Source: an uncultured Clostridia bacterium
GTDB lineage: Bacteria > Bacillota > Clostridia > Oscillospirales > Acutalibacteraceae
Direction of reading: 5' to 3'
Length of the DNA stretch: 64,000 nucleotides
Assembly: GCA_944380875.1 (NCBI GenBank)
Contig: CALWJA010000099.1
Span: 1-64,000, forward strand
In this document: positions 38,409-63,614 of the stretch, in pieces
How positions within the stretch are numbered: the stretch's first letter is position 1
Layout of the letters: each line of letters opens with the position of its first letter
Program-made: the position numbers and the translations under genes
The notes under the pieces: generated by a model
Told to the model about the DNA's origin: nothing
Databases searched by the model: none
Seen by the model: the letters and a program-made list of their open reading frames with translations, nothing else

Positions 38409-38747
38409 GATAAAAGGTGCTCTGTTACGGCAGGACTTTTATGGAAAAGAGAAACCGACAGTTTTATAGCAGGATATGTGTAGATGGGGACGGACAGCAG
38501 AAAAGCTGCTTCAGAGAGCCGCCGGATGGTGCAAGGCGGCGCAGAATCTGCAGGAAATCACCCCGGAGCATGCGGCTGAATACCGTTTTCCGGCGGAATG
38601 TTTGGAAGGCGGGAAAGTAAGTATCGCACGGGATCCTTCCGTTACAGGGGAGCGCATTGTTGGATGCGCAGAGTGGCCGTTTTTCGGCAAGTGGAGTGGT
38701 ACCGCGAGCGTTTTAGCCCGTCTCTATGTGGAGACGGGCATTTTTTG
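38409..38747 (+). promoter_or_regulatory. T-box riboswitch (probable isoleucine specificity) with terminator
   Basis: The leader has the T-box core GGAGTGGTACCGCG at 38693-38706 and the AGAGAG and GGTGCAA elements of stem I (about 38512-38534). It ends in the terminator GCCCGTCTC/GAGACGGGC (38716-38739) with a T run. The specifier loop right arm contains GGAAATCACC; ATC at 38557-38559 followed by A suggests an isoleucine codon. Uncharged tRNA-Ile would pair with ATC and with the core to prevent termination, turning on ilvB-ilvN-ilvA-ridA. The T-box call is firm; the specifier is read by eye. Confidence 0.92.
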
Positions 38748-38892: not shown

Positions 38893-40563
38893 ATGCAGCT
38901 TACTGGAGCGCAAATCATAATGGAATGCCTGCTGGAGCAGGGCGTGGATACTGTATTCGGGTATCCGGGCGGGGCGGTGCTGAATATTTATGACGCCCTA
39001 TATGAATATAAGGATAAGATTCGCCATATTCGTACTGCACATGAGCAAGGAGCTGCCCACGCGGCGGACGGATATGCACGTGCAAGCGGGAAAACGGGAG
39101 TGTGTATTGCAACTTCCGGCCCTGGGGCCACAAATTTGGTGACAGGTATCGCAACTGCCTATATGGATTCCGTGCCCATGGTTGCCATTACCGGAAACGT
39201 AAATCTGAACCTTTTGGGCTTGGACAGCTTCCAGGAGGTGGATATTACCGGTATTACCATGCCCATAACCAAGCACAATTATATAGTAAAAGATGTCCAT
39301 GATCTGGCTGATATTCTTCGGGAGGCTTTCCAAATTGCCCAGAGCGGGAGAAAGGGCCCTGTTCTGGTAGATATTCCTAAGGATATTACGGCTCATACCT
39401 GCGAATATGTTCCTGCGGAACCTAAACCCCTGTTTGAGGAACCCTTCCCTATAGAGGAACGGTTTGAACAGGCACTGCAGCTGCTCAACGCATCAGAAAA
39501 GCCCTTTGTATACTGCGGAGGCGGCGTGATTTCTTCCGGAGCGGCCGATGCGCTTAATACCTTCGTGGATAAGCTGGATGCGCCGGTTTCCTGTTCCCTT
39601 ATGTGTCAGGGCGGATTCGATCAGGAAAATCCCCGCTACATGGGAATGCTGGGTATGCATGGAACCAATACGGCGGCTTTAGCTATTAAGAACTGCGACC
39701 TCTTTGTAGCTGTAGGCACTCGCTTTTCAGACAGGGTGCTCTGCAACGCGGGGCTTTTTGCCCGGCACTGCCCGATTATTCAAATCGATATCGATACGGC
39801 GGAATTCAATAAGAATATAGATGTGCAGCTGAAAATGAAGGGAGACGCCAAGGAGATCCTGGAAAAACTCAATTCCCTTCTGGAGAAACGGGAGCACAAG
39901 GAATGGATGGATTCCATAGCTGCCTGGAAAAAGGAATATCCCCTGCAGCAGAAAGGGGAAAAAGAGGATGACGTTCTTCCCCAGGAAGTGTTGGAGACCC
40001 TTTCCAGACTTACGGAGAACAGCGCGGTGATTACTACCGACGTAGGGCAGCACCAGATGTGGGCCGCTCAGTTTTATACTTTCCGCAGCCCTCGCCAGTT
40101 CCTTTCTTCCGGCGGTTTGGGTACCATGGGGTATGGTTTGGGCGCCGCTATCGGCGCACAGATTGCCTGTCCGGAAAAACGCGTGATCAATGTTGCCGGG
40201 GACGGAAGCTTCCATATGAATTGCACAGAGCTCGCAACTGCAGCAGCTTACAATGTTCCTATGATTGAGCTGGTGCTTAATAATTCCGTTTTAGGTATGG
40301 TACGCCAGTGGCAAAAATTGTTCTATGGCTGGCGGTTCTCCCAGACGGATCTGGATCCCAATACGGATTTCTGCAAGCTGGCGGAAGCTTTTGGCGTTAA
40401 GGCTCTGCGGATTGCAAAGAAGGAAGATATTGAGCCGGTGCTCAAAGAAGCCCTTAATGAAAAGGGGCCGGTTCTCATCGACTGCCTGATTAGCAGGGAT
40501 ATCAATGTTCTTCCCATGGTGCCGGCTGGCGCTTCTGTGGAAGATCCGATTCTGGAAATGTGA
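38893..40563 (+). CDS. ilvB: Acetolactate synthase large (catalytic) subunit
   Basis: 556 residues, normal for the family. The TPP-dependent fold shows the catalytic glutamate in TAHEQGAAHAADGYAR, the FAD/central region, and the TPP/Mg motif GDGSFHMNCTELATAAAYNV ending in LNN. It condenses pyruvate with pyruvate or 2-oxobutyrate, the first common step to valine, leucine and isoleucine. AGGAGGG lies upstream of the ATG. It is the first gene after the T-box and is followed 9 bases later by the regulatory subunit gene. Confidence 0.96.
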   Translation: MQLTGAQIIMECLLEQGVDTVFGYPGGAVLNIYDALYEYKDKIRHIRTAHEQGAAHAADGYARASGKTGVCIATSGPGATNLVTGIATAYMDSVPMVAITGNVNLNLLGLDSFQEVDITGITMPITKHNYIVKDVHDLADILREAFQIAQSGRKGPVLVDIPKDITAHTCEYVPAEPKPLFEEPFPIEERFEQALQLLNASEKPFVYCGGGVISSGAADALNTFVDKLDAPVSCSLMCQGGFDQENPRYMGMLGMHGTNTAALAIKNCDLFVAVGTRFSDRVLCNAGLFARHCPIIQIDIDTAEFNKNIDVQLKMKGDAKEILEKLNSLLEKREHKEWMDSIAAWKKEYPLQQKGEKEDDVLPQEVLETLSRLTENSAVITTDVGQHQMWAAQFYTFRSPRQFLSSGGLGTMGYGLGAAIGAQIACPEKRVINVAGDGSFHMNCTELATAAAYNVPMIELVLNNSVLGMVRQWQKLFYGWRFSQTDLDPNTDFCKLAEAFGVKALRIAKKEDIEPVLKEALNEKGPVLIDCLISRDINVLPMVPAGASVEDPILEM

Positions 40564-49654: not shown

Positions 49655-50761
49655 TCAATCTTCTTCTGTATAGTTTCCCAGAAAAGAAAACCGAGGCAGT
49701 TCTGCGGATAGGGAACAGAGAAGGTTTAGAGTATGGGGTTCTCGTATGTTACCGGAAAAGTCTAGATAGAAATCATATTCGAATCGGCTTCCAGGGATGG
49801 GGCGGCTTTCAATTTTGGTCAGGTTGAGCCCTGCCTGGGAAAACCGGGAGAGAATGGCGTTCAGGGAACCCGTAACGTGAGGGAGGGAGAAACAAAGACT
49901 GATTTTTTCTGCGTTTTGGGGAATATACAGTTTCCGGCTGATCTGGATAAACCGGGTGCAGTTATTGGAATTGTTCTGAATATCCCGCAGAAGAATAGGA
50001 AGCCCTGCTTTTTCGGCTGCTTCCGCAGAGCAGATGGCCGCCTGCCCTTCTTTTTTTGCGAGGAAAGGTGCTTCGGCCGTGCTGGAGCATGGGCAGGCGC
50101 GAAGACCTTTTTCGGCAATCAGCTCCGAACATTGGGAAAGTGCCTGGGGATGGGAATAGACTTTTTCAAAGGTTTTCCCCTTTTCCCCGCAGAGGCAATG
50201 ATGGATATACAAAGTCTCGGCTCCTACGATATAAAACCGGTATTTCAAAATAAGATCATATACCTGCTCTACCGAGCCGGCAGAGGAGTTTTCTACCGGT
50301 AAGATGCCAAAAGGCGCTTTTCCTTCCGCCACAGCCTGAAAAATTTCGGGAAAAGTGGAGTAAAAAAGCGGAGTAGCTCCCGGAAGAAGACGCTTAGAGG
50401 CTTCGTGGGAGAAGGAACCGGGGGCGCCGAATACTGCCACTTCCGATGCGGAAAGGGGAGGCTCCTCTGCGTTTTGGAGCACATTGCGAAGTTCCTGGCC
50501 GCTGCTCAGAAGCTCATGCTGCAGCCCGCGGCTGATGCTCATGATAGCAGAATACAAAACTTTGGCTTCGCTTTTATACGTATGGGCTTTTTCATAAACC
50601 TTATCTAAAATAGCCTGCTCCCGGGCTTCATTCAAAATGGGAATTCCTTTTTCTTTCTTGATCTCGGCCACTTCCCTAGAACAATCCATTCTGGCCTCAA
50701 AAAGCGGAAGAAGCTTACTGTCTATTTCGTCTATCTTTGTTCGGGTTTCCTCCAATGTCAT
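49655..50761 (-). CDS. pheA: Bifunctional chorismate mutase/prephenate dehydratase
   Basis: 368 residues in three parts. An AroQ-type chorismate mutase covers about 1-85 (IDEIDSKLLPLFEARMDCSR). Prephenate dehydratase covers about 110-285 (VFGAPGSFSHEASKRL and the NNCTRFIQI motif with the catalytic Thr). A C-terminal ACT domain (LNLTKIESRPIPGSRFEYDF), containing the ESRP phenylalanine-binding motif, completes the protein. It converts chorismate to phenylpyruvate with feedback by phenylalanine. It overlaps aroC by 4 bases and is the last aromatic gene of the operon. Confidence 0.95.
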   Translation of the reverse strand: MTLEETRTKIDEIDSKLLPLFEARMDCSREVAEIKKEKGIPILNEAREQAILDKVYEKAHTYKSEAKVLYSAIMSISRGLQHELLSSGQELRNVLQNAEEPPLSASEVAVFGAPGSFSHEASKRLLPGATPLFYSTFPEIFQAVAEGKAPFGILPVENSSAGSVEQVYDLILKYRFYIVGAETLYIHHCLCGEKGKTFEKVYSHPQALSQCSELIAEKGLRACPCSSTAEAPFLAKKEGQAAICSAEAAEKAGLPILLRDIQNNSNNCTRFIQISRKLYIPQNAEKISLCFSLPHVTGSLNAILSRFSQAGLNLTKIESRPIPGSRFEYDFYLDFSGNIREPHTLNLLCSLSAELPRFSFLGNYTEED

Positions 50762-51933
50762 ACCTTTTCCTCCTTTGGGGGCTGTTGGGATTCTTCTGTA
50801 TCTTTAGTATCAAAGGGTTTGGCCGCGGGTTGTAGGCAGGCAGGAGGGGCCGACAGGAGTAGCTCCAGCATGGCAACGGCGGCAGCGCTTTCTGCTACGG
50901 GTATGGCCCTTGGCACCACACAGGGATCGTGTCTTCCATGAATGGATAAAGCCACGTTTTTTTTCGCTGCAAGATCTACGCTTTCCTGTTCCCTTCCTAT
51001 GGAGGGAGTGGGCTTTAAAGCAACGCGGAAGAGGATGGGGGCCCCTGTGGTAATGCCGCCCAGAATGCCGCCCGCTTTGTTGCCCGCTATCTGCATACGA
51101 CCGTCTTCATACCGGTAGGGATCGTTATTTTCGCTGCCGTGGAGCTGGGCGGTACCGAAACCAGCGCCGAATTCCACACCCTTTACCGCCGGTATACCGA
51201 ACAGGATGGAGGAAAGGAGGGATTCTACACCGCCGAATAAGGGGCCTCCCAGCCCGCCTGGCATACCCGTAACGGCACATTCCACAACTCCGCCTACACT
51301 ATCGAGAGCCATGCGCGCTTCCTCAATTACGGCCCGCATCTCTTTTTCTTTTTCCGGGTCGATTACAGAGAAATATGCGGTGGATAACCGTTCCATCAGA
51401 GAATCGGGAATATGGGTCTCCGGGAAAAGAGTATCCTGAACGGAGCCTATGGAAGCAGCATGCCCTGCAATGCGGATTCCCCGGCGGAAAAGAATTTGGC
51501 GGCATATAGCGCCAGCAGCACACAGACAGGCGGTTAGGCGCCCGGAGAAATGCCCGCCGCCCCGGATATCGTTATAGCCGGCGTATTTCAGATAAGCGGC
51601 ATAATCCGAATGGCCCGGCCTGGGGACCCGGTCAAGGGAACCGTAATCCCGGGAACGGGTGTTGGTGTTTTCGATGAGGATGCATAGAGGCGCACCTGTG
51701 GTAATTCCATTCAGGACACCGCTTACAATTTTGGGCGTATCGGCTTCTTTCCGGGGAGTAGAGCTTTTATCCCTGCCGGGAGCCCGGCGGCTCATTTGCA
51801 GAAGAAGGGCGTTTTCGTCAATAACTTCCCCGGCCGGAAGCCCATCCAGCACCAAGCCGATGGCTGGGCCGTGGCTTTCCCCAAAGATGGAAAGGCGTAA
51901 ATTATTCCCCCATACAGATGCTGCTGCACACAT
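50758..51933 (-). CDS. aroC: Chorismate synthase
   Basis: 391 residues. Signatures are SIFGESHGPAIGLVLDGLPAG, GRLTACLCAAGAI and a C-terminal HGRHDPCVVPRAIPVAE that binds FMN and substrate. It makes chorismate from EPSP using reduced FMN. ATG 51933 is preferred, 7 bases after GGAGGG; ATG 51939 is too close to that site. The gene begins inside the end of aroA (32-base overlap) and its stop overlaps pheA by 4 bases. Confidence 0.95.
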   Translation of the reverse strand: MCAAASVWGNNLRLSIFGESHGPAIGLVLDGLPAGEVIDENALLLQMSRRAPGRDKSSTPRKEADTPKIVSGVLNGITTGAPLCILIENTNTRSRDYGSLDRVPRPGHSDYAAYLKYAGYNDIRGGGHFSGRLTACLCAAGAICRQILFRRGIRIAGHAASIGSVQDTLFPETHIPDSLMERLSTAYFSVIDPEKEKEMRAVIEEARMALDSVGGVVECAVTGMPGGLGGPLFGGVESLLSSILFGIPAVKGVEFGAGFGTAQLHGSENNDPYRYEDGRMQIAGNKAGGILGGITTGAPILFRVALKPTPSIGREQESVDLAAKKNVALSIHGRHDPCVVPRAIPVAESAAAVAMLELLLSAPPACLQPAAKPFDTKDTEESQQPPKEEKV

Positions 51934-53254
51934 GGGCATTCCCTCCTAATTCGTTATATCGTGTGAAGAAATCCGGGAAACTTTTCCGGATGCTGTGGGG
52001 ATCGGTGATTTCCGTTTTTCCACCGATATACAGGGCGGCGGTGGAAAAACTCATAACAATCCTGTGGTCGTTCCATCCCCGCAGTTTCGCGCCGGAAAGG
52101 GGTTTGCCGCCCCGGATCAAAAGGCCGTCCGGCAATTCGGATATATCGGCTCCTAATCGGGAAAGGCCCTCGGCCATGGCGGACAGACGGTCGCTTTCCT
52201 TAATGCGGAGGCGTTCCGCGTTGTAGATCCTGGTTTCTCCCTCCGCAAAAGCCCCGGCTACTGCCAGAATGGGAACGAGATCGGGAATCTGGGAAGCGTC
52301 TATTTCAATACCGTGCAGGCGCCCTTGGGCGGGCGGGCGGCATCGGAAAAGGACTCCATTCCCTTCCGGATTGGGCAAGGTGCAGGTTTCAGCCCCAAAA
52401 CTTTTTAAAAGGGGGGAAATGGCGGAATCTCCCTGGAGAGAGCCGTTTTTGAGCCCGGAAACGGAAACGTCTCCACCCAAAGCCCCCGCAGTCAAAAAAA
52501 AGGCTGCCTGGGACCAATCTCCCTCCACTTTGTGTTCCCCGGTTGCATAGCGCTGGCCTCCGGGGATGATCCATCCGGTTTTAGTGGGTCGGGCGGTGAC
52601 ACCGAAAGCGGAAAGAGTTTCCAGGGTCATTTCTACATAGGCGGCGCTCTGGAGGGGCGTTGTGAGACGGATCTCGCTGTCTCCCTGGAGAAGTGGGAGC
52701 GCAAGGAGAAGGCCCGTTATGAACTGGGAACTGATATCCCCGGGAAGCTCAAAAAGCCCGGGGGTAAGGGCTCCGCTGATGGTTAGAGGTAGCCCTCCTT
52801 CCGTTTCGCAGAGAACGCCGTGCCGAGGGAGAAGCTCTTTATAAAGGCCGATGGGCCTTTGTGGCAGGCGGCCTCTCCCTATAAATTTGGCCGGTATTCC
52901 AAGGGCGGCGGCAATAGGAATCAGAAAGCGCAGGGAGGAACCGCTTTCCCCGCAGTCTATGGTCAGGGGAGAGGAAACTTTCTTCCCATCCGCCGTTCCG
53001 TCAGCCGAGCTTATAAGGGCGCCGTCCTGTTTCCGGATGACGGAACACCCCAGCGCCTTTGCAGCTTCCAGGGTTACGGTTATATCTTCTGAAGCCGCAA
53101 GAGGATGCACAAAGCAAGAGCCGTTTCCGGAAAGAGCGGAGAGAGCCGCGCAAAGGATAGCTCGATGAGCAGCGCTTTTAGAGGGCGGCGCCGCAACGGT
53201 GCCCGCCAGCCTGCCAGGGGTCAGAAGGACGATATCCGAAGAGGAGGATTCCAT
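51902..53254 (-). CDS. aroA: 3-phosphoshikimate 1-carboxyvinyltransferase (EPSP synthase)
   Basis: 450 residues. Family motifs are PPSKSAAHRAILCAALSAL at the N-terminus, LTIDCGESGSSLRFLIPIA, QFITGLLLALPLL and RIKESDRLSAMAEGLSRLGA. It joins shikimate-3-phosphate with phosphoenolpyruvate. The AAAGGAAG site precedes the ATG. The gap to aroB is 59 bases upstream, and the 3' end overlaps aroC. Confidence 0.95.
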   Translation of the reverse strand: MESSSSDIVLLTPGRLAGTVAAPPSKSAAHRAILCAALSALSGNGSCFVHPLAASEDITVTLEAAKALGCSVIRKQDGALISSADGTADGKKVSSPLTIDCGESGSSLRFLIPIAAALGIPAKFIGRGRLPQRPIGLYKELLPRHGVLCETEGGLPLTISGALTPGLFELPGDISSQFITGLLLALPLLQGDSEIRLTTPLQSAAYVEMTLETLSAFGVTARPTKTGWIIPGGQRYATGEHKVEGDWSQAAFFLTAGALGGDVSVSGLKNGSLQGDSAISPLLKSFGAETCTLPNPEGNGVLFRCRPPAQGRLHGIEIDASQIPDLVPILAVAGAFAEGETRIYNAERLRIKESDRLSAMAEGLSRLGADISELPDGLLIRGGKPLSGAKLRGWNDHRIVMSFSTAALYIGGKTEITDPHSIRKSFPDFFTRYNELGGNAHVCSSICMGE

Positions 53255-53313
53255 ATAGCCACTTCCTTTTCAGGGAATTTATGAAGAAATAAATAGGTAA
53301 GGAAGAAGAAAAA

Positions 53314-54369
53314 TCAGTTTTCCACGCCGCAGAAGCGAAGGAATTCTTCCCGATCCATTTCCTGGATGAAACTTTCTCCCACAGAGCGGAGAAGAATAAT
53401 ACGGATAGAGGATCCGGCGCTTTTTTTGTCGGAACCTGTGGCATCCAAAAGCTCGGGAAGACTGACTGTGTCGGAGGCGGGCAAGCCAAATTTATGCAGG
53501 AGGGAGGCGATCCTATCTGCTGTGCCGGGAGCTGTCAATCCGGCTTTTTCGCCGGCTTTTGTAATCATAACCATGCCGATGCCCACGGCGGCCCCATGGG
53601 AAAGGCCGGAAAAACCATGAAGCTTCTCCAGAGCATGCCCCAGAGTATGGCCGAAATTCAAAAGCATTCTTTCTCCTGTATCAAACTCGTCGTGTTCCAC
53701 TACCTTACGCTTGATATCCACACAGCGATAAAGGATTTCCTCCATATTTTGGGAAAAGTTCTCCGCTTCCAGAAGGGAGAAGAGTTCTTCACTGCGGATA
53801 CAGCCGTATTTGATGACTTCCCCCATGCCGTCCGCAAACCATTTTGGAGGCAGGGTGGAGAGAGTGTCCGGATCTATAAGCACCAGGGACGGCTGATGAA
53901 AGGCTCCGACCAGGTTTTTTCCCTGAGGCAGATCCACCGCGGTTTTCCCCCCTACGGAAGAATCTACCTGGGCCAGAAGGGAAGTGGGAATCTGCACAAA
54001 GGGGATGCCCCGCAGATAGCAGGCCGCTGCAAAACCGGCCATATCACCTGTTACGCCGCCTCCCAGGGCTATTATGAAATCTGTCCGTGTTAAGCGTTTT
54101 TCAGCAAGGAAAAGAAGAATATTTTCAAAAGTGGAGAGCTGCTTATGTTCCTCCCCAGCAGGAAAGACAAAAGAATCGGCGGCAAAACCAGCTTCCTGCA
54201 AAGAGGAAAGGACGCTTTCCCCATAAAGGGGGAAAACGTGGCTGTCGCTGACTATTACAGTCCGGATGCTTTTGGGAAAAAGCTCCCTGCAGAAGGAACC
54301 TGTTTTTTGCAGACATCCTCTTTCGATGCGGATGGTATAAGGCTTTGATGTGTATACGGTTAATTCCAT
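53314..54369 (-). CDS. aroB: 3-dehydroquinate synthase
   Basis: 351 residues from ATG 54369, which follows AAAAGGAG. Characteristic segments are PAGEEHKQ, ALGGGVTGDMAGFAAACYLRG, QVDSSVGGKTAVDLPQGKNL, GEVIKYG and NFGHTLGHALE, holding the NAD and zinc ligands. It cyclises DAHP to 3-dehydroquinate. The frame continues upstream for 24 codons without a ribosome site. Confidence 0.95.
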   Translation of the reverse strand: MELTVYTSKPYTIRIERGCLQKTGSFCRELFPKSIRTVIVSDSHVFPLYGESVLSSLQEAGFAADSFVFPAGEEHKQLSTFENILLFLAEKRLTRTDFIIALGGGVTGDMAGFAAACYLRGIPFVQIPTSLLAQVDSSVGGKTAVDLPQGKNLVGAFHQPSLVLIDPDTLSTLPPKWFADGMGEVIKYGCIRSEELFSLLEAENFSQNMEEILYRCVDIKRKVVEHDEFDTGERMLLNFGHTLGHALEKLHGFSGLSHGAAVGIGMVMITKAGEKAGLTAPGTADRIASLLHKFGLPASDTVSLPELLDATGSDKKSAGSSIRIILLRSVGESFIQEMDREEFLRFCGVEN

Positions 54370-54447
54370 TGTTTTTCTCCTTTTCCGGCTGATTCCGGCT
54401 TTATCCGTAAAAGTTTTCTGAATGGGGGAAGTGTGGAGCACCCAATG

Positions 54448-55284
54448 CTATTCGCCCAGTTCTTCTTTTATCAACCGCCCTTTTCTGAGAAGGGCCCGTA
54501 AATCATCCCTGCGGTTTTCCGCAACAGCGTTTCGTATGGAAGAAATATTTTCTATGAGAAGATCCAGTTCTTCCGTCAGATGTTCCGCATTATCCAGGAA
54601 AAGCTCTGTCCAGAGCACTTCGTTGATACGCGCGACCCGGGAAACATCCCGATAGCTGCCGGCAGAAAAGCCGTTGTGCTGGGGGCACTGGGGGCTCATC
54701 ACATAAGCGCAGGCCAACACATGGGGAAGCTGGCTTGTATAGGCGATCATTTGGTCGTGATGGTCGGGGGTGGTAATCACTGTTTGCCCGAATCCCAATT
54801 GCATGGCCAGGCTGCTAAGCTCTTCCACCGCTTCCTTCGGCGCCCCGCAGGGGACGAGTATGAAGCTGGCCCCCTGGAAAAGCTCTGCTTCGCTGGCGGA
54901 AAAGCCGTTCTTTTCTTTTCCAGCCATAGGATGGCATCCAACAAAAGTAAAGCCGAATTTTTCCGCTAAAGGCGGCATACGCCGGCAGATTTCCCCTTTA
55001 ATACCGCAGGTATCCGCCACAAGGCACCCTTTTGGAAGCAAATTCCCGTATTCGCCGATAAAGGAAACAGCGGCGTCCGGATAGATGCAAAGGAAGACTA
55101 AGTCCGCTTCCCGCAGGGAATCCGGCGTACCTATACGGTGAATAGCGCCTTCCGAAAAAGCCTTTTCCAGAACGTCGGGGCTTACGTCTATGCCGGTAAC
55201 CGTATGTTCCGTATACATGCGCAGCGCCTTTGCCAGAGATCCTCCGATCAGGCCCAGCCCCACAATTACAATATTTTTCCCCAT
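54448..55284 (-). CDS. tyrA: Prephenate dehydrogenase
   Basis: 278 residues. The Rossmann motif is IVGLGLIGGSLAKAL; the active-site histidine lies in GCHPMAGKEKNGF. It oxidises prephenate to 4-hydroxyphenylpyruvate with NAD. ATG 55284 lies 10 bases after GGAGGG; ATG 55302 would place that site inside the gene. No ACT domain is present at the end, unlike longer TyrA proteins, so feedback by tyrosine may act elsewhere. Confidence 0.94.
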   Translation of the reverse strand: MGKNIVIVGLGLIGGSLAKALRMYTEHTVTGIDVSPDVLEKAFSEGAIHRIGTPDSLREADLVFLCIYPDAAVSFIGEYGNLLPKGCLVADTCGIKGEICRRMPPLAEKFGFTFVGCHPMAGKEKNGFSASEAELFQGASFILVPCGAPKEAVEELSSLAMQLGFGQTVITTPDHHDQMIAYTSQLPHVLACAYVMSPQCPQHNGFSAGSYRDVSRVARINEVLWTELFLDNAEHLTEELDLLIENISSIRNAVAENRRDDLRALLRKGRLIKEELGE

Positions 55285-55337
55285 GGTAATCCATCCCTCC
55301 ATCGGTGCGGTTTATGGTCGTTTGACAAAGCCGGAAC

Positions 55338-56354
55338 TTAAACGGTTTCTTTCAGAACTTTAGCTGCCATAAAGACACGCTTAGCCACATGATCGAATTG
55401 ATCGGGCGTCAGAGACTGGGCGCCGTCGGAAAGAGCCTTGGAGGGATTGTTGTGAACCTCGATCATAAGGCCGTCCGCTCCTGCGGCTACAGCTGCCATG
55501 GCAAGAGGCTCCACAAGGGATGCGATGCCCGAAGCGTGGCTGGGGTCTACAATCACCGGCAGGTGGGAAAGTTTTTTGAAAATCGGCACGGCAGAGATAT
55601 CCAGAGTGTTGCGTGTATACGTTTCATATGTGCGGATACCGCGCTCACAGAGAATTACCTGCTCGTTTCCTCCGGCCATAATGTATTCGGCGCTCATAAG
55701 GGTTTCCTCGATGGTATTGGCAAGGCCCCGCTTCAGCAGGATGGGTTTGCGCAGCTTGCCCAGTTCCTTCAGCAATTCGAAGTTCTGCATATTCCGGGCG
55801 CCCACCTGGATAATGTCTACATCTTCAAAAAGAGGAAGATGGCTGGTACTCATAATTTCCGTTACAATGGGAAGACCGGTGCGTTCCCTGGCTTTTCGGA
55901 GAAGCTCCAGTCCGCTGGCATGAAGCCCCTGGAAAGAATAGGGGGAAGTGCGAGGCTTGAAGGCGCCTCCCCGGAGAAACTGGGCGCCGGCCGCTTTTAC
56001 CCGTTCGGCCACATAGCAGATCTGCTCTTCCGTTTCTACAGAACAGGGGCCGGCCATAATGCAGAGATTTCCGCCGCCGATTTTCTGCCCGCCGGGCAAA
56101 GTGATAACGGTATCGTCGGGATGAAATTTCCGGTTGGCCTTTTTATAGGGTTCCTGCACCCGCTTTACACTGTCCACCACATCCTGGGCAGCGATATACT
56201 CGATATCGATGACGGAGGTATCCCCGATCAGACCCAAAACGGTGCTGTGTGTCCCAACCCAGGTGTTAACCTTTACTTTGTATTGCTCTGTAAGATTGTC
56301 TGTGAAGCTTTTCACCTGAGCGGCTGTGCAGTCTGGCTTTAATACGATAATCAT
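55338..56354 (-). CDS. aroF: DAHP synthase (type I-beta, with N-terminal ferredoxin-like domain)
   Basis: 338 residues. An N-terminal regulatory domain of about 70 residues precedes the KDO8P/DAHP barrel with MAGPCSVETEEQ, GGAFKPRTSPYSFQGL, VDPSHASG and EVHNNPSKALSDGAQSL (metal and phosphate ligands). This is the AroF/AroG-beta form in which the N-domain mediates feedback by Phe/Tyr. It makes DAHP from phosphoenolpyruvate and erythrose-4-phosphate, the first aromatic step. It is the first large gene after the attenuator, with site AGGAGG. Confidence 0.96.
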   Translation of the reverse strand: MIIVLKPDCTAAQVKSFTDNLTEQYKVKVNTWVGTHSTVLGLIGDTSVIDIEYIAAQDVVDSVKRVQEPYKKANRKFHPDDTVITLPGGQKIGGGNLCIMAGPCSVETEEQICYVAERVKAAGAQFLRGGAFKPRTSPYSFQGLHASGLELLRKARERTGLPIVTEIMSTSHLPLFEDVDIIQVGARNMQNFELLKELGKLRKPILLKRGLANTIEETLMSAEYIMAGGNEQVILCERGIRTYETYTRNTLDISAVPIFKKLSHLPVIVDPSHASGIASLVEPLAMAAVAAGADGLMIEVHNNPSKALSDGAQSLTPDQFDHVAKRVFMAAKVLKETV

Positions 56355-56424: not shown

Positions 56425-56455
56425 GAAAAAAACGGAGCTGCTGCCAGCTCCGTTT
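56425..56455 (-). terminator. Attenuator terminator upstream of aroF
   Basis: On the minus strand AACGGAGCT pairs with AGCTCCGTT around a six-base loop, and a run of T follows. It sits 33 bases after the leader-peptide stop and 70 bases before the aroF start, where an ordinary gene-end terminator would make no sense. Confidence 0.88.
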
Positions 56456-56615
56456 AATCAGCATATAATAAAACAAATAATCCGGTTTCAGACACTGTAT
56501 GTGTCACAAACCTGCTGATTCTGTATGGAGTTTCCGCAGCTGGATGCACACGCCAAAAAAGCCCGAGCCATAAAATAGCCGGGATAATAAAAGCCTGTAA
56601 ATCGTGTGCTGCGAA
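56425..56615 (-). promoter_or_regulatory. Four-segment transcription attenuator of the aromatic operon
   Basis: Four pairing segments lie on the minus strand. Segment 1 (56615-56603, leader codons 5-9) pairs with segment 2 (56552-56532, codons 26-32) by 13 base pairs split by a 7-base bulge. CCAGCTGCG inside segment 2 (56543-56535) can instead pair at eight of nine positions with CGGAGCTGG of segment 3 (56452-56444). Segment 3 is the 5' arm of the terminator whose other arm is segment 4 (56439-56431). The Phe/Tyr codons occupy the loop between 1 and 2. A ribosome stalled there would free 2 to bind 3 and prevent termination. Confidence 0.75.
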
Positions 56616-56628
56616 CTGTCGTAGACAT
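56488..56628 (-). CDS. Phe/Tyr-rich leader peptide of the aromatic operon
   Basis: A 46-residue frame starting at ATG 56628 behind AGGAG, four bases away. Residues 10-24 include Phe at 10, 13, 19, 24 and Tyr at 14, 15, 18, with the core FTGFYYPGYFMARAF. The remainder is unremarkable (three Cys, one late Tyr). It lies between a strong promoter and a terminator directly upstream of aroF. Composition and place match attenuation leader peptides such as those of pheA and trp operons in enterobacteria, with the translated codons acting as the sensor. I know of no named homologue. Confidence 0.75.
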   Translation of the reverse strand: MSTTVRSTRFTGFYYPGYFMARAFLACASSCGNSIQNQQVCDTYSV

Positions 56629-56730
56629 AAAACTCCTGAATCCTTTCTGCGGTTTTAAGGTTCCGGGAACGTAACCGTTCCCAACCGGATCATGCTTTTT
56701 TAGAGATAGATTCTATCCCTTTGTGGATCC

Positions 56731-56759
56731 ATGATAAACGATTTTATTTTGATTGTCAA
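56731..56759 (-). promoter_or_regulatory. Sigma-A promoter of the aroF operon
   Basis: On the minus strand perfect TTGACA (56759-56754), 17-base spacer, TATCAT (56736-56731). The transcript would start near 56724, about 95 bases before the leader-peptide start. A small hairpin GGGAACG/CGTTCCC lies in between. Confidence 0.85.
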
Positions 56760-63410: not shown

Positions 63411-63497
63411 AATTGAGCGTGACTGCGACAGATATGCGTTGAAGCGGGAGGTTGCGGCTGAAACAGGCCGGTTTTTCCGTGGAGTATGTCCGATTTT

Positions 63498-63614
63498 AAA
63501 CCGGGCGACAGATATTTTGAGCGCTGAAGAATACAGGGTTGCTATTCTATGCGTTCAGACGTTTTTTGTGCCTAACACCCGGATTTAACTTGCGAAAAGT
63601 CGAATCCGGTTTTT
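63498..63614 (+). promoter_or_regulatory. Possible attenuator in the rpsJ leader
   Basis: CCGGATT (63579-63585) pairs with AATCCGG (63603-63609) and is followed by TTTTT, a terminator-like hairpin 84 bases before rpsJ. The left arm region CCCGGATTT can instead pair with AAACCGGG at 63498-63505, a possible antiterminator. Leaders of the S10 operon are known to be regulated in other bacteria; here this is inference. Confidence 0.5.

Follow-up and report, generated by a model that had tools for sequence, protein, structure and literature searches.

A predicted Phe/Tyr leader-peptide attenuator upstream of aroF in Clostridia

The enterobacterial pheL and trpL leaders (Phe_leader and Trp_leader in Rfam) contain a short open reading frame rich in codons for the end product of the pathway, RNA segments that can pair as 1:2, 2:3 or 3:4, and a terminator ahead of the structural genes. 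For Clostridia, T-boxes are the usual account of how amino acid genes are controlled. Leader attenuators have been described in Firmicutes for histidine, with a spread of, for example, five Eubacteriales species (PMC9413887, PMC2965389), and for branched-chain amino acids in the form of the Leu-rich ilv attenuator of Staphylococcus aureus (PMC5794164). An element called uORFC-13-1 is reported upstream of aroF in Acholeplasma and environmental sequences only, with 24 sequences and at least one Phe codon, and attenuation is proposed for it (PMC8632094). Two uORFs of shikimate genes with both Phe and Tyr codons come from a study of five genomes, among them C. novyi and Thermovirga (PMC6429828, Fig. 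6b).

In the 64,000-nucleotide stretch of Clostridia DNA analyzed here (the window), the region in front of aroF is very probably a ribosome-mediated transcription attenuator, as predicted from its sequence and from folding models. It resembles pheL and trpL in its end-product codons, its 1:2, 2:3 and 3:4 alternatives and its terminator ahead of the first gene, but differs in having no Rfam match, in carrying both Phe and Tyr codons, in being found in Clostridia and in preceding DAHP synthase and the whole shikimate-Phe-Tyr operon. With the His and ilv attenuators of Firmicutes it would share the replacement of a T-box by leader-peptide attenuation, whereas those systems act on other amino acids and genes and have a narrower spread in the surveys cited. 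Like uORFC-13-1, compared here by its published description, it combines aroF with a short ORF bearing Phe codons, its own promoter and a terminator just downstream (PMC8632094). The shikimate uORFs of the five-genome study also place Phe and Tyr codons ahead of shikimate genes and may be relatives of the element (PMC6429828). The literature searched contained no description of a Clostridial aroF leader family; subscription papers were mostly outside its scope, so an earlier description is possible.

The leader and its operon in the window

The initial annotation had described a strong minus-strand promoter, a 46-codon frame with a ribosome site, seven Phe or Tyr codons among residues 10-24, an intrinsic terminator shortly before aroF, and 1:2, 2:3 and 3:4 complementarity with the Phe/Tyr codons inside 1:2. 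All of these parts were found again (Table 1). The frame opens with ATG at 56628 and closes with TGA at 56490-56488, and its control residues are F10, F13, Y14, Y15, Y18, F19 and F24, that is, 7 of 15. In the predicted folds the long 1:2 helix encloses every Phe and Tyr codon together with the inner hairpin, and CCAGCU (56543-56538) is the partner of AGCUGG (56449-56444) in 2:3. The spacer hairpin is predicted to draw segments 2 and 3 together, and a similar hairpin is present in the nearest relative, L112. The terminator stem (56455-56430) has 11 pairs and a U tract and lies 75 bases before aroF, which starts with ATG at 56354.

Table 1. Positions of the leader elements and of the genes behind them in the window
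Feature	Position	Strand	Basis
Sigma-A-type promoter of the leader, TTGACA-17-TATCAT, 11/12 matches	56731..56759	-	Sequence
Ribosome binding site of the leader ORF, AGGAG	56633..56637	-	Sequence
Leader ORF (MSTTVRSTRFTGFYYPGYFMARAFLACASSCGNSIQNQQVCDTYSV), 46 codons, stop included	56488..56628	-	Sequence; homologous frames in relatives
Segment 1 (UUCGCAGC), pairing with GCUGCGGAA at 56540-56532	56608..56615	-	Folds
CGA-TTT dicodon (Arg9-Phe10), near invariant across family leaders	56599..56604	-	Dicodon counts
Control codons 10-24, 7 Phe/Tyr	56557..56601	-	Sequence, codon statistics
Inner hairpin of 1:2 (CCCGGCUAU..AUGGCUCGGG), on the control codons, followed by CUUUUUU	56562..56583	-	Covariation; synonymous recoding
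Segment 2 (CCAGCUGCGGAA), 3' side of 1:2 and, via CCAGCU, 5' side of the antiterminator	56532..56543	-	Folds
Spacer hairpin AAUCAGCA:UGCUGAUU, spanning the stop codon of the leader	56456..56520	-	Folding
Segment 3 (CGGAGCUGG), common to antiterminator and terminator	56444..56452	-	Folding
Intrinsic terminator 3:4 with U tract	56426..56455	-	Sequence; relatives
aroF, DAHP synthase, first gene controlled in the proposal	55338..56354	-	NCBIfam NF006421, TIGR01361
tyrA, aroB, aroA, aroC, pheA, on one strand, close-set or overlapping	49655..55302	-	ORFs, NCBIfam

In the proposed mechanism RNA polymerase would start at the leader promoter and make the leader RNA, on which a ribosome would translate the short ORF. 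If Phe-tRNA or Tyr-tRNA were scarce the ribosome would stall within codons 10-24, covering segment 1 and the inner hairpin, so that segment 2 could pair with segment 3; with 2:3 formed there would be no terminator and aroF-tyrA-aroB-aroA-aroC-pheA would be transcribed. If both tRNAs were plentiful the ribosome would reach the stop codon and cover segment 2, leaving segment 3 to pair with segment 4, and transcription would end before aroF. Without translation 1:2 would form and the terminator should form too. The attenuator reading is based on the parts themselves, their conservation, the codon bias, covariation in the inner hairpin and the folding behavior; from these we infer the stalling, the readthrough, the sensing of Phe- and Tyr-tRNA charging and the control of the operon.

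The leader RNA of the window folds far more stably than dinucleotide shuffles (z -7.4), and its Phe/Tyr density alone has a chance of about 1.6% in shuffles (47/3000). Its antiterminator is short, at 6-8 pairs with one mismatch, and the 2:3 pairing alone is not significant, being equaled in 27% of 15 shuffles. The weight of proof rests on the relatives and not on the window alone. A common 5' hairpin before the ORF was also considered and set aside: it is strong in the window, while L112 and L113 have a different sequence there. A stretch of the 5' UTR (56703-56690, CTAAAAAAGCATGA) is complementary to 56426-56414 (TCATGCTTTTTAG), just past the terminator; L112 has a shorter form of this complementarity and none was seen in L113.

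The gene order assigned with NCBIfam is aroE, aroK, the leader, aroF, tyrA, aroB, aroA, aroC and pheA, the last encoding a chorismate mutase-prephenate dehydratase. No trpE was found in the genome of the window (G000), which is rated 99.99% complete, and the pathway would therefore feed Phe and Tyr; judged from its sequence the organism is likely to be a Trp auxotroph. A sister species carries trpE, and the distribution of this gene within the family is patchy. Elsewhere in the window a T-box-like match on the plus strand (38472-38728; 91.7 bits, just below the gathering score of 93) precedes ilvB, encoding acetolactate synthase (ORF 38893-40563), so that the window holds two kinds of tRNA-charging sensor, this T-box-like element and the putative leader attenuator. 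An S10-Clostridia ribosomal protein leader (RF03136, 53.6 bits) lies at 63431-63511 on the plus strand.

Conservation and structure of the leader among relatives

We collected 80 aroF loci from GTDB species genomes, 78 of which had enough upstream DNA. Upstream of aroF, 42 of the 78 carried a short ORF in which 15 codons held 7 or more Phe/Tyr; dinucleotide shuffles gave 1.6 such loci on average, and the reverse strand gave 3. Both Phe and Tyr codons were enriched over shuffles in these loci, while other residue pairs (Leu/Ile, Lys/Asn, Gly/Ala and others) were close to shuffles and not enriched. Sensing of Trp was considered and rejected. Trp codons occur in many leaders, yet Trp is not enriched, and a Trp codon does not track trpE: leaders with a Trp codon came from 12 genomes without and 18 with trpE, and leaders lacking one from 13 without and 9 with the gene (Fisher p 0.26).

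Adding further loci from the family of the window brought the number of upstream regions to 145. In an independent sample across the class 28 of 39 close aroF orthologues had a leader that reached the same threshold of 7 Phe/Tyr (expectation about 1 in 50), and none of the 11 distant aroF paralogues in that sample had a Phe/Tyr-rich leader. An intrinsic terminator lies between the leader stop and aroF in 112 of 123 family leaders; in shuffled regions the frequency was 3 of 60. Of the 109 relatives with a leader, 103 have a promoter-like pair (9/12 matches or better) no more than 200 nt ahead of the leader ORF; these promoters, mostly with TTGACA, hold a near-constant place, in most cases about 60 nt before the ORF. 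The layout of promoter, leader and terminator is constant while the leader peptides diverge strongly. The initial annotation had named the loss of the frame or its pairings in relatives as grounds for refuting attenuation; instead the frame with its Phe/Tyr codons, the terminator and the antiterminator potential persist ahead of most aroF genes in the family and the class, which supports the attenuation reading.

Palindrome-like TTATCGCTTTAAAGCGATAA elements precede the -35 box of the aroF promoter in L024, L026, L029, L068, L134, L136, L154 and L179, and are possibly a repressor operator. CTTTAAA occurs in 14 of 93 upstream regions (1.6 expected).

Compensatory changes, which the initial annotation had suggested looking for in segments 1-4, were found in the hairpin inside the ORF. 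Among 26 relatives 7 of its 8 pairs had changed on both sides, with 15 double-changed cells compared to 4.4 in shuffles, and pairing dropped from 78% to approximately 54% when the register was slid by one. Synonymous recodings of the ORF also gave less stable RNA than the natural sequence in 100 of 109 leaders. RNAalifold found no consensus in 51 automatically aligned leaders because the alignment was gapped, and a smaller alignment and a named helix were used instead. The members of this smaller alignment were picked for carrying CGATTT, so the invariance of the motif there, and in the set of 50 searched for its complement, is by selection. In an unbiased count 55 of the 70 leader dicodons that encode Arg-Phe are CGA-TTT; by comparison, CGA accounts for 2 of 188 Arg codons in the aroF genes of 14 relatives and 13 of 145 in the aro genes of the window. 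Across the leaders of the family (the window and relatives L112-L178) the dicodon is almost fixed although CGA is rare in aroF. A conserved pairing of CGATTT was tried as an explanation and dropped, as the complement occurs elsewhere in the leader in 23 of 50 cases even when G-U pairs are allowed. The dicodon may act through slow decoding of CGA just ahead of the first Phe codon, or as an RNA element.

NusG-dependent pauses in B. subtilis are marked by a hairpin together with TTNTTT, and one such pause allows time for translation of a leader peptide (PMC12288461). By analogy, the inner hairpin and the T tract behind it could be a pause signal for RNA polymerase. A broader and more tentative idea is that these Phe/Tyr attenuators form an ancient family spread through the class Clostridia and equipped with timing parts of its own: the hairpin and T tract within the control codons would cause RNA polymerase to pause (NusG-type TTNTTT pausing), and a slow CGA directly ahead of the first Phe codon would keep the ribosome in step; we regard this as possible but doubtful.

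Folding behavior and alternative explanations

Attenuators are generally kinetic switches. When the complete terminator was included, equilibrium folding favored it at nearly all ribosome positions and so did not discriminate between them; a switch at this locus must therefore be kinetic, decided during transcription. For this reason we cut the RNA just before the 3' arm of the terminator, removed the ribosome footprint at each codon and computed the probability that the 5' arm of the terminator (segment 3) was paired with upstream RNA. The mean sequestration of segment 3 in 109 leaders was 0.55 without a ribosome, 0.72 with a ribosome on the Phe/Tyr codons and 0.39 with a ribosome at the stop codon. 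Sequestration on the Phe/Tyr codons exceeded that without a ribosome in 88 of the 109 leaders and that at the stop in 102, and in most leaders it fell directly past the Phe/Tyr cluster. It was higher than with shuffled upstream RNA in 97 of 109, with a p value of 2e-16 that is a guide only because the sequences are related. For 30 leaders of the class sample, from 22 other families, the corresponding values were 0.47, 0.71 and 0.36. In the folding models across the relatives, an antiterminator forms while the ribosome occupies the control codons and disappears once it is at the stop; in the window alone the fall past the control codons is weak. As the mean of 0.55 indicates, segment 3 is incompletely released in many relatives when no ribosome is present.

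In tnaC and leaders of the Erm type it is the nascent peptide that arrests the ribosome, and the aroF leader could in principle be a peptide-sequence sensor of this kind, with a small molecule, for instance free Phe or Tyr, as the signal in place of uncharged tRNA. The pattern RFTGF.YP.YFMA..F.AC, which recurs inside one clade, and the endings like SAGYFCCKK that recur in other leaders would suit this explanation, but across the class the peptides have little in common beyond Phe/Tyr richness. The recurring residues also coincide with the covarying hairpin and with the T-rich and GCRTGC segments next to it, so that RNA structure can explain them, and we consider a peptide sensor improbable. 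It is less probable still that the ORF encodes a small functional protein followed by an ordinary terminator, with no attenuation at all. Such a gene would account for the good ribosome site and for a promoter and terminator of its own, but not for a peptide that diverges while its Phe/Tyr richness, its place, the terminator and the antiterminator potential persist, nor for a pattern that accompanies close aroF orthologues and is missing from the distant paralogues.

A T-box or riboswitch that binds tRNA or an aromatic compound directly, with the ORF being incidental, would be at home in a genome with 15 T-box matches (RF00230), one of them before ilvB in the window. Yet no Rfam family, Phe_leader and RF00230 included, reaches its gathering score in the leader, lax thresholds bring up nothing credible there either, and the conserved feature is coding capacity, which together make this explanation extremely improbable. 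No T-box was found at the gathering score in relatives without the leader. The initial annotation had stated that Firmicutes mostly use T-boxes or TRAP; leader attenuators were already known in some Firmicutes, and the aroF leader is not a lone exception.

Proposed attenuation in the control of aromatic amino acid synthesis

In the family of the window, and in 22 further Clostridial families, a classic attenuator that couples transcription to translation appears to control the entry into aromatic amino acid synthesis, and in the genome of the window the putative attenuator coexists with T-boxes. This offers a testable case of whether translation tracks RNA polymerase closely enough for attenuation in these gut bacteria. 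If the proposed timing parts are real, they would form a recognizable sub-architecture that is undescribed for other leader attenuators. The attenuator reading would also explain the small Phe/Tyr-rich ORFs found in many genomes, and the leader family could join Rfam.
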